DNA of 64,000 nt. Source: Apostichopus japonicus (Eukaryota > Echinodermata > Holothuroidea > Aspidochirotida > Stichopodidae). The stretch is from the NCBI RefSeq assembly GCF_037975245.1, contig NC_092570.1, forward strand, positions 4,188,001-4,252,000, written 5' to 3'. Shown here piece after piece: positions 16,401 to 56,300 of the stretch (positions are counted from its first letter, which is position 1; every line of letters begins with the position of its first letter). The notes beneath the pieces were generated by a model. It searched no databases. It was not told the DNA's origin and saw nothing but the letters and a program-made list of their open reading frames with translations. The translations under genes and the position numbers were made by a program.

Positions 16401-19400
16401 GAGGTATGTGACTCTTTTTTTCATTTCTAGCCAGAGGCAAATTATGTGATGGTGATGGCGTTTGTCCGTGTGTGTGTGCATGTGTGATGCCTTGGCATGT
16501 AAACACAATAACTCAAAATCTATATTATGAGTGAACTTCATATTTGGTGTGTGGTTGTACCTTCATGATTAGAAGAACTCTACCGTTTCGTGCTGAGGTC
16601 AAAGGTCGTTTGAGGTCAACAGAGGGTAAAATCTGAATATGCTTGTAAATATGATAACTCTAAAAGTAAAGCTTGAATGTACTTCATACACAGTATGTTG
16701 AAAAACCACCTTTATTGAGTACAAGAACCCTATTTACTATTGTTTTGGAGGTAAAGGTCAACAGAGGTCAAAGACTAAAACTTTGTTAACATGAAGAAAC
16801 AAAATTCAAAATGTGGGATCAGGCAAAGGCATTGTTTGCCATAACCCAAAATGATGTGCGATATAACATAGCATTGCTGATGTACGCTTCATCCAGATGT
16901 CATAAAAAGTAGGTTTGATATCTTGTGTAGAACTTATGTAGGGATATATGTGTGTAGGGATATGTGTGTAGGGATATGCTTATAAGGATATATGTGTAGG
17001 GATATGTGTGAAGAGATATGTGTGTAGGGATATATGCGTGTAGGGATATATGTGTAGGGATGCATGTGTAGAGATGTGTGTGTAGGGATATATGTGTAGG
17101 GTTATGCATGTGTAGAGATGTGTGTGTAGGGATATATGTGTAGGGTTATGCATGTGTAGAGATGTGTGTGTAGGGATATATGTGTAGGGTTATGCATGTG
17201 TTGAGATGTGTGTGTAGGGATATATGTGTAGGGTTATGCATGTGTTGAGATGTGTGTGTAGGGATATATGTGTAGGGTTATGCATGTGTTGAGATGTGTG
17301 TGTAGGGATATATGTGTAGGGTTATGCGTGTAGATATGTGTGTAGGGATAAATGCTAGTTCAAACTGTTCATAGTCATAGAACAGCTTAATTATGATAAT
17401 CTGTAAATCTATTTACTTTATTTCAAATTTCTAGAGCTGCTGAAAATGGAGAGATTGCTACAGTTCCTCTTACAGAGGTAAGGTTTTCAAACGTTAATGA
17501 CTTTTATTAATAGATTTCAAAGTTGATACTTTTTATTTTATTATTTTTCATTTTGACTTTTGCTAGAGGTTTGTCTCCAGTAGACCAAAAACTTGAACAC
17601 TTTATGGGTTTTTTTTGTTATTTTCTTCTTGATTTGTTTAGATTCTTGCTGAGGACCATCCAGAGTTCAAATGGGTGGCCATCCTGATTCAAGTCTTTAT
17701 CATCATTAGCGTAACCGTGTCTTACCTTACCCTCGGGTCGGCCCTCAAACATTCATGTGAGTCTCGGCATCTTTACTACCACCGATCGCTCTGTTTTTAT
17801 AAACCTCTCGGGTAGAAATTAGGTTTCTGGTCTTTCTTGCTCAAGACTTGATGAAGTATTATTTGTGTGAAAATTACTGATGTTGGTCAAGCAGAAAAAA
17901 TTATGTATTAGAAATTTGAAAGAATGATGGACAAAAGAAAATGTGGGTGAGGGGAGTGGGAGGGGGGTGGTAGAGGGTTTACTACATGCAAGCTTGTCTC
18001 TGTGGGCAGGCTTAAATCATGAAAGTGCTTCATGAGAGGAGAATATATTTTGCAAAGGTATCTCATTCAGTGGCAGAAATGTAACCCCCCCTTCCCCTCC
18101 AGGATGCAAACACACTATTACTACAACTTACATTACTATTCGATCTTAATAGTGTTACAACAGATATTATCAAACCTTGATATAGTCTGTCACATTTCCA
18201 AAGAAGTATCGTCTCCATGCCTTTTAAAGCCCATTCCACCTTCCATAGCATTGGTATCCAGCCCTAACCTACTTTGCATATAAAGATCTGGGCAGAGCAT
18301 TTCATGGTCGTTAACTGATCGGCTAAGCGTCAGTCGCACCTTATTGATAGGAAAAAAACACTTTCACGGCCTTTCAGCTGAATTTTGCACTTGCAACTTG
18401 GGTGAAAGGGTCGGCAAGTGGAATAAATCAAGTAAATTTTTTAGTAAACCAAACAAAATCTGCTTTCCGTATTAAACTGGTTCATAATTCATTTTTTCTT
18501 CTCCAGTTCTGGGCTGGTTGGATGACCTGATGAGCTGGGGACGTCATCTTACGGATGAAAGACCGTCTGTTACGAGCAGACTTAGGCTCTTACCTAGAAA
18601 GTAAGCAATCACTCACTTATATACTCTGGCCACCCATAGCTGTGTGATTTTATCTCATTTTGTGGAATCGATTGTTTTTTAAATGAGCAAATTGGACTGA
18701 AAATCTTGCATATTTTCAAATGTGTGGTAATTAAAAGACTGCCTAAGATCGCAAGTAATTTTTGGAGTTGTGAGAAATAGGTCCACGGTGCTTCCACTTG
18801 TTTTCTGTTCATTCAAGATTTCATGCCAAATCATCTTAATCTAAATCTTAGGTGGGGGAAGTGTGACCTGCATGTACACTCTCCGTTACCCTAGCGACGG
18901 TTTTCAATATCTCTTTGATGCGACCTTGCAGAACCTCATAGCGAGGAAAAACGCAAAATGTATTCACTTTTGGGGAGTTTGTATAGATGTCCTGCTTGTG
19001 ATTGCATATTTCAACATAACCGATGGGCAAATTACGTTTTTTTCCCATAATGCAAAGTTTTCATTATTGTCTTGGAAGGCTAAAGAACTCATTTTCCTGT
19101 CATATAAAAGAGTCACCAAACTTTCTCCTCTTCTTTCATCTTTTCTCCAGTGTGTTTCGACCCATCTTGACCTTACTTCTCTTTGGTGCTATTTTTGGTG
19201 TTGCCATGGCAAACCCCAAGGTAATTTACCCTACAATTTTCTCTGTAGCAATATTTCAGAGCATAAAGAGAGGTTTTATGTATAGCCAATGGAAGTCTAT
19301 AATACATATCTGTCTAACTGTTTGGTTTACTTTGTGTTCAGGTTTTACAAAATGTGATAATTTGACCGAATTATCTTTAACAAAGTCTCATTTGTAATTC

Positions 19401-38300: not shown

Positions 38301-41300
38301 CACTAACCTCCAGAAACCACGAACCCGCACCTAACTGCTTGATATCATCCCACATGAAATTTGACGCGGGCTCCCGCGCCCGTTCCGGAAAGACCTCTGT
38401 GATGTTGGTAGTCATCTCAAATGTTTCATCGTGTAGTAGGAATAGTTCCCCATCCAAACTAAAACAGAGATAAGAGAATGATGAAACATATTATGCTTGT
38501 TGCTAGCCATCTCAAGAACACAATCGATTGCTACAGAGAAGTCCCTCATCCTTGTTTCAAGTTTCTTTTCCGATACTGGGTCTTTCTTTTTTGCACTATA
38601 TCATATTTACAATTTTAGGTTATAAAAAAACTAATTTAGGCACTTAAAATTGACCTACCTCACCAACCACCCCCAACCACCCCACCACACTCACTCTCCC
38701 GCTTGCTTATTAAAGAAAACAACATATAAATTTACACATGTCTGATCATCAACCACCAACAGACAGCTTTGTTTGACATATTCACAATCATGTCTGATAA
38801 ACACAGTTTATGCTCTGAGCGTCGGTAAACATTGCATCAAAGTCTCCGAAATTGAAATATGTCGGTCTTTTACCGGCGTTACCTAGTTGGTCACTGGTGG
38901 TAAATACAACATTCGCTCCTAATTATTAAACACAAGATCTTTTGAAACTTACTTCCACAACTAGCACAGAGACTGAGAATGACCAAATCTTTGGAGATCA
39001 TGCAAACATTGTAGATCAGGCGCATTATGACCGAAATAACAGCGCCCTCGGTAGAAACGTCAAAGTCCCCCCTCCTCCTTACTGAGTTCTTCACCATGAG
39101 AAACGACAAAGAACCGTTCACTTAAAACTTTTCCTACGAGTCACGCACGGTATCCGAACAATTCCACAAGCATATCTTTTCTAATTCCAATTTTCTTTCT
39201 TGCCAACTCATTTTACCAACCACTCAAATGTGTGGAGTTGAAATTCTTACAAAAGCCTGAATATGACCCAAATTATTATTGATCATCTTTGTTTTCTTAC
39301 CTTATCGATACATCCGTCTCAAATCCTGAAATATCATATTTCAGCGCTGTTTCAAAAGACACTTGTGTATTTTCAGGAGCGAGCTGTTCATTGAAAGAGA
39401 AGACACTATTCAACATGGTAGTTTCTGACATCATTGCTTGATGATGCACTGAGCACTAGCTGACACAGAAGTGAACATTTTCTGGGATTTTTCTACCCCC
39501 CCCCCACCCCAATCTATTAAAACATGATCATAGATATGAACCACCTTACAATACTTCCTAAAATACCTTATCCAACCTTTTAGCAAGATTGCCAACCCTG
39601 TCTAATCCAAAAAAAAAGGGGAAAATGGGATTTTTGATATTTAAAGTTTTAGGCACCTATTTTCTGTTTTCTATTTTAGTGTTACAACTAAGATATGATT
39701 TAAAAGTTTTCACAAAACCAAAATAAATAAATAAGAACAAAACAACAGAAATATGCAAGTTGAATAGAACCACATTCCAATTATTCTGTTTTTTGGGGGG
39801 TTTTTGTTTAAAGGAAAAACTTGCTATCTTTATTCTGTATATTGTCATCATAATGGCATTAAGTCTTCATTTCAATGTTGTGCGGTCTGCACTACTGACT
39901 TAGAAATATCATTTTGTATTATTAAATGTGGATTTGCTTTATTATGCCAATTCTTTCCATTTAATCTTTACCCACTCCACTTTTGTTGAGAGCTGGGGGA
40001 GGGGGGAGGGGGGATGGGGAGATTGGCATTTTATATCGTGCATGGGATGCTTCAAGAGAGAGAAGGAAGGCCTTACTTGGAGTGCACCTCGATGAGCCAT
40101 CACTTTGGGCCGGGTGGGCACTGATCCAGACATAAGGCATGGTGGGAACGTGAAGAGTGGGATGAGATAGATCGATACTGCCAGGATTGAAAAACATACC
40201 ACTAATGAATACTTCACAGCTGAGGAAAGAGAAAACAAGAAAGAAATTTGCAAATTAATGCTGCTGTTTTGGAAGAAGGAAAGAAACAAGGAAAACAAGT
40301 GTGGATGTGGTCATCTTAGGATGGAGCTTGCTTTAGTATTACAGAATCATCAGTTAAACGATGAAGCAAGTTGAAAATTGATCTTCAAGTATAGCAAAAT
40401 AGCAATGATAGTGGACTAAATAGTGTAGAATGCAAATCACACAGGATTGTAAAAATGCATGAATGGTGAAAAGCCAAGCCCCAGCGGGATGTAAAATGAT
40501 TCTGACAGACAGGCAGAAAGGAGGTTAACATTTCCCACCAAGAGGCACTTAACTTCAACAAAGAGCCCCTTGCCTTCAATCCCAACAGCCCTGCCATGCT
40601 AATGCCTTCAACCCCAACACCCTATCACACCAATGCCTTCAAACCCCAACAGCCCTGCCATTCTAATGCCTTCAACCCCAACACCCTATCACACCAATGC
40701 CTTCAAACCCCAACAGCCCTGCCAGGCTAATGCCTTCAACCCCAACACCCTATCACACCAATGCCTTCAAACCCCAACAGCCCTGCCAGGCTAATGCCTT
40801 CAACCCCAACACCCTATCACACCAATGCCTTCAAACCCCACAGCCCTGCCAGGCTATTGCTTTCAAACCCCAATAGCCTGACACACCATTTTCCATTTAT
40901 CCCAACACTCTGCCATGCCTTCTACCCCAACACCCTGCTACACCAATGTCTTCAATCCCAACACCCTGCCACACCAACGCCTTCAACCCCAACACCCTAT
41001 CACACCAATGCCTTCAAACCCCAACAGCCCTGCCAGGCTAATGCCTTCAAACCCCAACAGCCTGACACACCAATGCCTTCAATCCCAATACCCTACCATA
41101 CCAAATGCCTTCAACACCAATACCCTGTCACACCAATGCCTTCAACCCCAATACAATGCCTTCAACCCTTATACCCTGCAACACCAATGCCTTCAACCCC
41201 AAGAGCCCTGCCACACCAATACCTTCAACCCCAACAGCCATCTATGACAACTACTTTCTCCCACAGGGTTAAACATACCCTTACTACAACATACACAAAA

Positions 41301-44300: not shown

Positions 44301-47300
44301 ACCTGTGTGTATTCTGTGCGTGTTTTTGTCCCTTCTGTTACTGTTACTTGTCATTAAGTCTTTGAAGAAGATCCTGCTAGGATCGAATCGTCACGCCGAA
44401 CTTACTTTTACACATTCTCTTACACAGGCTCTCTAGTGGATAAGCAGTTTGCTAACAGTTTTATTTTATTTTTAATTAAAACAAACATGTCAACTTAAAA
44501 TGTGATCACTGGCTGACAAGTAACAGCCTTCTTTTAAACATATGAAAATTTCCAAGACTCACCTGTCAAGTTTATTCTGAAGAAACCAATGCTGACGATC
44601 CAGCCTAAAAATGTGACTAAGACTACGGACAAAATGTGTAAGATCGGACCGGTCACCTGCGAGAAAAAAGTAGAGAAAAATGATCAAATTACCAGACGAT
44701 ATGATTCCACTGCTGTCAATGCCCACCAAGCTAGTCATATCCACTGCAATATCAAGTTTTGCTTACGGTAGTTTAACACTTGTTGTCACATCACTAGCAT
44801 AACTAGGTGTACTTTGTACTTATCAGGCCGTCTAACTTCATTAGGCCGTCTAAGTTCGCTAGGCCCTCTAACTTCATCAGGCCCTCTAACCTTATCAGGA
44901 CCTCTAACTGAGCCAGGACCTCTAACTTCGTCAGGCCTTCTTCGTCAGGCCCTCTAACTTCGTCAGGCCCTCTAACCTTATTAGGACCTCCAACTTTGTC
45001 AGGCCTTTTAACCTTATCACGAACTCTAACTTCGTCAGGACCTCTAACCTTGTCAGGACCTCTATTTTTGTCAGGACCTATAAATTCTACAAATTAGTTA
45101 TTATCTATCTTCTTGCACTGCCTCTCCCTCCAGATTCATTCCCTTAGCTTTTTTTACACTTGATAATCTCAAGAGATGTCTCTATTATGATGGATACCCT
45201 CACCTTTAAAATTACCTGCAGCGATCAATTTCCTTTACCTTAAATGGCTTACTATCTTTTACAAATTCAGTCACCTGTGTTAAAGAGAGTTTCTACACAA
45301 ACCTTAAACGATATCCATACGAGGGCAAACCCCATTGGCCAGTATTTGCTTAGTAAGACAGAAGACACTATGGATCCGAGTATGACCGTCACAACCAACA
45401 CTTTATGAAACCAGTGTAGATGAAGTTGAAGACCAATCAGCATGTGGCTGACAGCAAACACCTGCGAGGAAATAATATCAAGTATGACTGTTGAATATTC
45501 ATAGTTCTGCATAATTATATATTTATTATGGAGGAAAAATGACTGGGTAATTATATACAATGGAAAAGAACAAAGAATATATGGCTAGAAATTGATTTGA
45601 ACAAGTGATTCATGTTCTAGCTATAAATTTCATTGAGCTCTTTTTCCATTTATTAAATTTATCTATATGTTAAGACTACAATACATTGATGTTGAACATT
45701 CAAATAAATACATAAATATAATTATACAGTATATTAACCGTGGTTATCATTTTCGCATCAATCTTTGTCATTCATTTGATCATAGTGCAACTATAGGCCA
45801 TATGATTAACTCAAGATCTACGTAAGTGAAGATTGGTCTGACACCTGCCTTGCCTTCACCTCACTGCCCCACTCACCCCCCCCGGGCCCCCGCACTCCCC
45901 ACCCTGTCCAACCATGCCCAGAAAGATGAGTTTAAGCAAGAACTTGAAAGAAACTAACAACCAAAGACAATTAGCTGATAAGGCTGTATCAGTCATAAAT
46001 TATACATAAACCAGGAAAATCACCATGGCAACACAAAAGTAAAATAAAGTATGAACTAACTCGAGACTGAAAGGAATGATAATCATGCAATTGATCATTA
46101 CAATATTTACAACCCACTCACTATCATACATTCTGTAATCCATCCGTTGCGAACATTTACGTTCACAGCACATGTACACTAGTATTACTATTGTTATTAT
46201 TAAGGTAAGTAATCCTTTAACTCACCATGGGAACACATTTTCTTCTTCAGTATCTTTGTATATATATATAATGACAGTATCAATATCATATATACAACCT
46301 GTCTGGCTAAAAAACAGATTCTTTAGTCCACACTACATTTTACAGTGAGATATTTCCTTATGGTAAAATTAACCGTGCCCTGTGGCAGGAATTAACGAAT
46401 CATCTCAACCGTACGAATTCGTTTTTGCAGCCGAGACTCTGGCATCAAACGAACGTTACAGTTCTGCTTTTCCTCAAATGTCAAAATTTTTTGAATTAGT
46501 GAAATGATTCGGTAATAATTAGCTGCACTTCCACACGGTTAGACCTTACAAGTAGCGAAAACCAGAAAGAGCAATTTGTGAGAAAGGTTTTGAAATACAG
46601 AAGTCATGCATAAAAAGTAGTGAGAAAGAAAGAATTGTTGCAAGACAAAGTATAACAAGTGTTACCGTTACTCTATCAGCAGAACGAGTGAGTGACAATT
46701 TTGCTTAAAAAAAGCCTTTGTATAATTGATATCATTTTCACCCCAGAGCAAGATAATATTCTTAAGAGTATTATGAAAGCTTATAACTGCAATTCCAAAT
46801 TTGGAGTTTCATCCAAATTAGTTTCAAATTAACTTTTGAAGGTTAGTCTCCATTGAAAGTAATATGCACTCCTATCTTCTCGGCCGCAAACATCTTTTGA
46901 TACTTCACACCCACTGCCCCACAGCAGGGCCAGCCTTCTACTTCCTCTTCCAGGTTCTAAACAAATCATTCTGAAGGCTTGTAAAGTCTACAAACTCCAA
47001 AATTTGAATTTTTTTTCCTCCATTGGATCAAATCAACTTTTGTTTAGGTTTGTTAGGTTAGAGTGCATGTGTTGAATGCAGAAGGGGACAGAGCATTGAA
47101 GAACCTACACATCTGTGGGATTTATGTAACAGTTAGTATGCTACTGTACCTTCACACAACAACTCCAGTGGCAGAGCATCCATACAGTCAGGGGGGGCAT
47201 CCAACTGACTACTCAAATGGACTGCTGGCGCCCTTTTCAGCTCTGTACCACTTTTTACTTATTTGTGATGATTGACTTTTTTATTGCACTCTCATCTACC

Positions 47301-53300: not shown

Positions 53301-56300
53301 ATTAAGGCAAATTTACAATCTTTTGGGCAAAAATCAGCTGAGATTTCTATCCTTGAAATAATGAAACCAAAAACACAAATCAAGATCTGCTGTTTTCCAA
53401 AATGCCAATATGGCCAATTTAAAATTTTTTAAAACATTTTTAATCACATTTGTTTACCAACCAAGTTTTGTAATCAAATTTGTCCGACAAACCTGTAGAC
53501 ACAAAATGATTTCGTCACAAAATATGCTTAAAAAACACCAACATAACTAATGATTCATTTTCTTTTAGACACAAACATGCAAGCACAGAGTAATTGAAAA
53601 TAGGGAAATATCTAGTAAGAGATTTGGGGTGGTTTCCGACTAAAACAGGACTAATAGCAACTGTTTAGCATTGTTCCGCATATATACAACATTTGTATGA
53701 GAGGGGGATACTAGCTACTTAAAACTGTGTAACGAGATATCATGAGTCCAATCATGTATTTAAATCGAGAAATTAAACTTCTTCCATGTGGTGATACTGT
53801 ACTATATGTTATTAATGTTTCCCCTAGAGGCTAACATTGATCAAGTTTGCAAATTTCACAGGAGGAAAGACAGTTAGTACCGAAAAGACCGACCTTTAGC
53901 AAATACCAAGTCCTGTTACTTTTTCGGCCCTGAAGGGCTTTTGTCCCCATCAACGGATAAAATACCCATTCTCACATCTGGGAGCTGAATAGATAACCCG
54001 GGAATATGTTTAGTGAGCAGTTTTGTGTATTTTCAGTATTGCATGATTCGATATCATGAAACATGGAAAACATTAATATTCTGTCTACAGAAACAGTTGC
54101 ATATCATTGAAATAAATTTGTGCATCAAACTTCCCGTTCACACATTGCTAAATGCCTAGACGATACCAAATAAATTATTCCCTGAGAACGAGAGACCAAT
54201 AAAAAAAAATATGATGTTACAGTGAGAAATAAATGCGCGTAAAAGTGGGCAGTCGATGTGTTGGAAAAAGTGAACACTTTGTGATCTTTCCACCGGAAGT
54301 AATTTATCCAGTATTGTAATAGCAGACTGCTATGCAAAATGGGCGAATTGCTATGCATATGTGCAAAGATGTATAGTAATTCTCCTACGCAGGTACCGTA
54401 GTATTTTACAAAGGAAAGGAAGTTATAAGCCTTCAAAACCGCTACACAAAATTTGAACACTGAACTTGTTCCTTGTTCTACAATATTTCTGGTGGTAAAC
54501 TGGTGACCTATATCAATTCCATTCTAGGCAGTATATTTCTGAGGATTGTTGAAACAACTCTGATCAAAGTTTAAACCCTTTCATGTGACCAGCTAAAGTT
54601 TATTCCAAAGACTGTCAATGGATTTATCAGACAAAAGAAGACATTAAGCGCTCATTTTTCCGGTTTCCTGTTTCCTGGGTAAGTTTCCAGTTCATATTAA
54701 ATCAGGTTAAGTAGTAAAAACACAGTTTATTTAAATACAGCAATTTCTGTTGATTTTGGTTAAATTTTCATGAAGATTTTTTTACTTAAATCCAAATACC
54801 AATACGGTGAATTAAATTCATTAATTTCAAAATGTCCGAAAAAAGCAAAAGTAAAAAATAGTGAAAAATTTTTGTACAGCTTTTTGGCAGGTGACCAACT
54901 TGACCAATATTATTTGTCACAATGTGTGTAGGTAATTTACAAGCTTAACTGCTTCAATTGCTATTCGGTTCTATAGAAATTCCCCGGGAGTAATCAATGC
55001 TTAACACGGACTATTCTATGCATGAAAAACACATCCTTATATTGTCACTTCGGGTGTTAGAATGAGTGTGAGAGTCATTGATTGGTAGTGACCGGCCACT
55101 AAGGGTGTACAGTGTTAAAAGGTTACCAGTTCCCCCTTGACATGCTAGTGGCCGGTCATTGAGGGTGTACTGTGTTAAAAGGTTACCAGTTCACCCTTGA
55201 CATGCTAGTGACCGGCATCGAGGTAAATGAATCTGGAGAAACTATCACACAGTAAATACGCGCGTACCATGCATGGAGGGTCATGTGATGTGTTCCAGGG
55301 TGGTACTAATATATTACTCTCCCCATTACGCATGATGATTTCACCCAACTAGTACGTAAATGTGTATGCGTGCTTAGAGCAGCAGACGACACCCATTACC
55401 TAGCAATAACCGTGCCTGTAGCCTAACGTGATAGCTATATTCCTGTCGAGCAGCATTAGGCTCTGTTCCATGGAGAATTCCGTGGTTGCACTGATCTAAA
55501 CATTTCCCCACAGCACCAAACGCTCACCCTTGACAACCGTGGAACTACTGATTTGGTTCACATGCAGTGCTTGATGAATACACATCGAGTTATGTACGCG
55601 AACAGCAGACGACACTTAACGATGTTCCAGACGACACTCTCAACTAAATTCTTCACTAAAAATGCCGTTGTCTGCATTAACTGTAATTAACTTGCCCTTG
55701 TAAATAAACTTGTAAATTAACTTACTGTTAGGCAGTAGGCACTATCTGCATGTGTTAAGTCAGGTCTACCGAGAACACTCTCTTAACTTCTGCAGAGTTA
55801 GCTAGTAAACACACTTAACATGATCTTAGACACCCTCCAGTTCAACAATCCTTTCGACAAAAAATCGTTCTTGAAATACAATTCAGACATCGACATTTCC
55901 CGCTGCAAGCCCAATTTATCTGTACTTGTTCTGTGCCAGCATGTCTAACGTTAGCATATTAGCTTTGAAGTACCAGTACCTTCTTACGCCGTTAGTTCCC
56001 ATGTCCGATCCGTCTTGGTGCAAATCTTTCACGAAGTCACTAACACTATTCTCGAACTGCTACAGAGAAATATCAATTTGGTACCACCCTGGAACACATC
56101 ACATGACCCTCCATGCATGGTACGCGCGCGCCCAATTGACATGAATCCTCCAGATTTATTTAACTCGTTGGTGACCGGTCATAGAGGGTGTACAGTGCTA
56201 AAAGGCTACAAGTTCACCCTAGAAATGCTAGTGACCAGTCATAGAGGGTGTACTGTGCTAAAAGGTTACCATTTCATTCTAGACATGCTAGAACGAGGGT

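Follow-up and report, generated by a model that had tools for sequence, protein, structure and literature searches.

A MITE-like DNA transposon family of Apostichopus japonicus that often inserts at a fixed step from a short motif

We examined a transposon caught inside a tandem repeat in the window, a 64,000-nucleotide stretch of Apostichopus japonicus DNA (NCBI RefSeq assembly GCF_037975245.1, contig NC_092570.1, positions 4,188,001 to 4,252,000 of the forward strand). A preliminary description of the sequence had placed here a 955-bp element with an 8-bp duplication, 23-bp terminal repeats and a perfect 48-bp subterminal inverted repeat, and re-reading 55208-56178 bore out each of these. 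The element occupies 55216-56170 on the plus strand and is flanked on both sides by GTGACCGG, with the left copy of this target-site duplication at 55208-55215 and the right copy at 56171-56178. Its terminal inverted repeats (TIRs), of the CAWCGAG type, are 23 nt long and 87% complementary, and lie at 55216-55238 (plus strand) and 56148-56170 (minus strand). Two subterminal arms of 51 nt, at 55259-55309 (plus) and 56078-56128 (minus), are 98% complementary, stand 768 nt apart and contain the perfect 48-bp inverted repeat. The longest stop-free stretch in this copy is 89 aa, and none of five open reading frames (ORFs) from the window copy and its relatives reached a Pfam cut-off. By this check they lack an internal transposase gene, as MITEs do.

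The host sequence is a 60-bp tandem array at 55086-56291, with units at 55086-55223 and 56171-56291. After excision of 55216-56178, a 60-bp unit remains whose register matches that of the adjoining units, in agreement with the preliminary description. About four units stand at this locus. In a search with a two-unit query, in which 40 of 152 candidates were scored, one other array turned up approximately 0.55 Mb away (C10:4790583-4791483), with about 15 units, and the remaining matches were short and scattered. The 60-bp tandem unit therefore stands as first described, but it forms a local tandem array, and "satellite", the word used for it, is too strong a name genome-wide. Other tandem arrays occur in the window at 40571-41236, 44823-45087 and 16946-17354, with periods of about 64, 18 and 44 bp, respectively.

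Searches of the assembly (671,581,487 bases in 35 contigs) placed the element in a large family. A whole-element search gave 440 candidates, the best 40 of which were scored. A 31-mer from the arm had 296 + 280 = 576 matches at no more than three mismatches, whereas its reversed control had none in the same assembly at the same threshold; dividing the arm matches by two puts the number of two-armed copies at roughly 290. The copies that we read were the best scored or came from contigs C1-C5, and are not a random sample. Among the 40 best-scored copies, the 8-bp duplication was perfect in 26, had one mismatch in seven and had three mismatches in one. The remaining six had one end missing or misplaced, and one of these (L024) showed a perfect GTCACATA after its right end (L061) was fetched. 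We also read 20 further copies, taken from about 24 clean arm pairs picked by eye among 100 listed places on C1-C5, and all 20 had perfect 8-bp duplications; one of them (L078) shares its flanks with a site read earlier. Many copies with common ends and duplications of fixed length (576 arm matches; 26/40 and 20/20 perfect) are likewise a property of MITEs.

The same repeat with and without the element was found at three places. The element occupies one 8-bp site at L055 and L056, in opposite orientations, which reflects either two insertions into one site or an inversion in place. L057 is the host repeat of these two copies without the element and holds GCTTATAT once, making it a paralogous empty site. 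This host repeat is about 7 kb long and contains a hAT dimerisation domain; we considered it as a parent of the family and set it aside as a host repeat, of which L057 is a copy lacking the element. The preliminary description had proposed a genome search for other copies, with differing ends or flanks without shared 8-bp duplications as grounds for giving up the element. We looked for both among the copies, and the element stood, with shared ends, the duplications counted above and the empty site at L057.

The window copy is among the longer forms of the family. Of 54 measured copies, 38 were 628-679 bp long and nine were exactly 667 bp, and in the whole-element search many short copies aligned to the window element as 1-303 plus 621-955. 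Two copies (L081 and L082) are identical across 671 bp and have different duplications, and therefore the family moved recently. We also compared TIR variants in 54 copies, a set that includes the window copy and copies with duplicate flanks. Both ends of a copy agreed at three variable positions in 40, 48 and 52 copies, compared with 26.9, 27.1 and 30.8 expected if the ends were independent, and this agreement is a sign of homogenisation of both ends. Within a dispersed repeat of about 2.26 kb (L115-L124) there is a fossil copy of the element whose end reads CATCGAGTAAACCTGGAG; the family is therefore old, in addition to having been active recently.

We then asked what the insertion sites have in common. 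Removing six places with unclear ends and seven with duplicate flanks from the first 40 left 27 distinct sites, including that of the window. When aligned on the duplication and freely oriented, these sites shared a motif with GG at offset +15 from the duplication start, which is 7 bp outside the duplication and on one side only. The information in the motif was 15.05, compared with a mean of 9.52 and a maximum of 10.41 in 30 shuffled trials (40 random starts for the real set, five for each shuffle). The consensus is roughly A-G-G-K-N-G-C-A-Y, with GG(K)NGCA(Y) as a short form. The motif was to the right of the element in 13 sites and to the left in 14, and the orientation of the element relative to it looks free.

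The matrix from the 27 sites was applied to 19 distinct new sites as a held-out test. The predicted offset was the best of 75, with a score of 2.18 compared with a mean of -4.69 (s.d. 1.14) for the other offsets. Ten of the 19 sites reached 4 bits there, compared with 2.0% at the other offsets, and a score as good came up in 0 of 2000 permutations. The step is exact, because offset +12 scored -2.83 and offset +13 scored 2.18. Six nested or extra sites brought the total to 52 distinct sites, from which L060 was excluded because its two duplications mismatch at 2 of the 8 positions. In a leave-one-out analysis 35 of the 52 sites reached at least 3 bits, compared with 2.3% of random window positions, or 1.2 sites expected, and 17 sites lack the motif. 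We conclude that at roughly two thirds of the distinct sites insertion is sequence-directed.

The target rule accounts for the window locus. A matrix built without the window site, X-flanked sites and self-insertions (see below) gives each of the four 60-bp units a score of 12.1-15.0. For the unit that received the element it predicts GTGACCGG, and the motif GAGGGTGTAC of this unit lies at 56184-56193 (plus strand), with its GG beginning 7 bp outside the duplication; the adjacent unit has an equal score. The array thus received the element because the motif recurs in register in every unit, and it is not a chance landing place. The insertion site and its duplication had been described as defined by the host array itself. 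This holds, but the motif is in register in every unit, and therefore the duplication is predicted by the target rule of the family too, not by the array alone. The first reading, which saw the array merely as defining the site, missed the targeting visible in 35 of 52 sites.

The family also inserts into its own copies, and the rule could be compared with these nested insertions. For this prediction we used a matrix of 26 columns, built from the 26 motif-bearing sites among the 39 left after excluding the window site, self-insertions and sites adjoining a repeat that we call X (see below). Over the 1860 positions of the window element the three highest scores were 12.17 in the left arm, 12.15 in the right arm and 8.86 at element position 262. 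The corresponding target-like words are GTTCCAGGGTGGTACTAATATATTAC at 55292-55317 (plus strand), 56070-56095 (minus) and 55477-55502 (plus). Three of the four scored nested insertions (L076, L043in and L070) were exactly at predicted positions, and the fourth (L046in) was off them. L076 and L043in are at the arm position, with the duplications TGTGATGT and TTTGATGT, respectively, where TGTGATGT was predicted; L070 is at the place matching position 262 in another copy, and its duplication CATGGAGA is the predicted one. L026 has the arm junction of the nested copies on one side only. An element end abuts TGTGATGT-GTTCCAGGGTGG at five places in the genome, L076 included, which may not be five separate events. 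The arm word by itself would be only suggestive of a link to targeting, and it is weak evidence because, of 300 trials with a shuffled element, 10.7% attained the arm score of 12.17. The stronger argument is how exactly the nested insertions fit.

Taken together, the family is probably a non-autonomous, MITE-like TIR DNA transposon that has been active recently, makes 8-bp duplications using transposase supplied in trans, and is often targeted at a fixed step from a motif whose likeliest holder is the arm-binding domain of the transposase. In such a mechanism, transposase supplied in trans would move the non-autonomous copies, the DNA-binding part of the integration complex would hold the motif, and the catalytic pair would cut a fixed distance away. 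As the arms carry the same kind of word (GGGTGGTAC), the motif would most likely be held by the domain with which the transposase recognises the arms. We tentatively suggest that a single DNA-binding domain is used twice, for arm recognition and for target choice, and hence that the element enters its own copies, arrays and transposon edges carrying the word. By analogy with the Hermes octamer, spare BED domains could touch the target DNA. With a fixed-step motif outside the duplication, target choice can be tested through a change to one word. Such a motif would also account for the clustering of insertions in arrays and within the family's own copies, and it points to an integrase that a short sequence could steer.

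The main rival to a shared domain as the holder is a host protein bound to the motif, acting as a tether for the transposase or keeping the site accessible, in which case the transposase would not read the motif itself. A motif that is one-sided and used in 35 of 52 sites, as a helper rather than a strict requirement, is consistent with such a protein. However, the fall from 2.18 at +13 to -2.83 at +12 appears tighter than a flexible tether would give, and the same word is present in both arms. We regard a host tether as rather unlikely, and favor the arm-binding domain as the holder.

Which superfamily supplies the transposase is a related question. An 8-bp duplication, common to hAT and P and present here, leaves hAT, P and a few other superfamilies, and hAT is our best guess, although unproven. 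Descriptions of eukaryotic DNA transposons that make 8-bp duplications mostly give patterns inside the duplication or centred on it. Dada and Pokey are site-targeted transposons aiming at particular gene families; they resemble this family in sequence-directed insertion by a eukaryotic DNA transposon, but its target is a short dispersed motif of which it has copies of its own. The terminus had been described as unlike known hAT ends. Copies in this family start with CAACG or CATCG; the former resembles hAT ends, and the latter does so less. The likeness to hAT elements and their MITEs (Hermes, BuT2) lies in 8-bp duplications and short TIRs, the latter given as 10-25 bp in PMC3942097. According to PMC10368747, Hermes transposase domains bind subterminal repeats, the counterparts of which here would be the arms, several BED domains of the octamer bind asymmetrically, and the target pattern is nTnnnnAn. 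Position 2 of the duplication was T in 48 of 104 strand readings from the 52 sites, in the direction of this pattern (assumed background 32%), and position 3 was T in 46; the signal is weak for nTnnnnAn as for the alternative nnnTAnnn. Given this leaning at position 2 and the CAACG starts, hAT fits slightly better than the other superfamilies. Unlike hAT elements, this family has the TIR starts given above, no linked transposase in the places read and an asymmetric motif outside the duplication, at a distance of 7 bp, which goes beyond the hAT rule as that source gives it. GTGGC, an early lead for a Hermes-like binding site, was dropped because the same source revises it to AAGT. The family had also been thought possibly undescribed, and neither it nor such a target rule is described in the literature titles and opening lines of abstracts searched, a scope outside which Repbase and most subscription journals lie.

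An autonomous relative with a transposase had been proposed as a further check, and none emerged from the hAT flanks, P loci, long copies and variant-end places read. Matching element ends were absent from about 1.3 kb on the 3' side of 20 of the 150 listed hAT-domain matches (633 candidates), from the 8 of 45 P-type matches read with 6.5-7 kb, and from 12 more P-related places, six of them as 3' flanks only. A TIR followed by neither known end type gave two matches, the variant copy L021 and a candidate at C20:12481116. An arm followed by neither type gave 38, two of which are at two P copies on C19. Ten other such arm matches were fetched as candidate partners and rejected: eight share the dispersed ~2.26-kb repeat with the fossil element, L123 shares pieces of it and L119 shares chiefly its element-like part. 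Long copies were also rejected as autonomous forms. L040 holds an inserted 374-aa ORF that only by eye resembles reverse transcriptase. L041/L042 are partial ends, separated by about 14 kb, with no ORFs of 150 aa, and in L061 an inserted stretch of about 1 kb carries a 182-aa ORF that is below every Pfam cut-off.

A P-type transposase is an improbable partner. P elements have 8-bp duplications, short TIRs and inner inverted repeats, as this family does, and the genome has 45 P-type transposase matches, with the solved P transposase 6p5a matched at 6.2e-32. In addition, at one P locus (L049) an arm-like stretch follows 188 bp past the ORF. That stretch begins 55 bp past the divergence of L049 from its relative L104, and fossil element copies with the same arm lie in another repeat; it therefore reads as an old insertion, and we rejected it as proof of a P partner. 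Furthermore, the P copies read in this genome have other ends: the common 5' boundary of L048 and L103 starts AGAGCCGTATATAG, not CAWCGAG, and 0 of 8 P loci had element ends. P target sites also follow a symmetric GC-rich pattern centred on the duplication, in contrast to the one-sided motif outside it found here. As for the P elements themselves, L049 (C19:10283700-10290700) and C19:10312842-10315061 are two identical transposase copies about 26 kb apart, with a frame of 779 aa open, or 740 aa from GTG, that matches 6p5a. Of 70 listed matches to this transposase (614 candidates, 60 scored), 31 cover residues ~262-457 at 48-53% identity with several stops. This decayed P fragment is in a high-copy repeat at many places in the genome, for example C10:9780924-9781484 (L108).

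The last alternative concerns repeat X, a TIR element of about 470 bp that is abundant in the genome (2018 candidates, best 40 scored). Among the 46 sites in the first two sets, eight adjoin its ends, six matched by BLAST and two (L066 and L075) by eye. The ends of X read GGTGGCATACTCC and GGTAGCATACGCC, and the insertions are 7 bp outside either end; thus, the motif at these eight sites is the end of X. Without the X-flanked sites and L076, the held-out mean was 1.31 compared with -3.73 (s.d. 1.12), 6 of 16 sites reached 4 bits compared with 2.2%, and 0 of 5000 random sets scored as high. That there is no true target rule, and that the motif is seen because copies sit in a few repeat families sharing it, would suit these eight sites and the several other flanks that are repeats, but is very unlikely given that the signal remains after removing the X sites, duplicate flanks had been taken out, the opposite-side flanks of X sites differ and nested self-insertions fit the rule. 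A weaker T-A..A at +28, +29 and +32 also remains without X sites. X lies within a 2268-bp tandem unit in L125 (C9:12544200-12546900), a stretch with both ends identical across 433 bp, and a spacing of 2.26-2.27 kb separates several other X matches.
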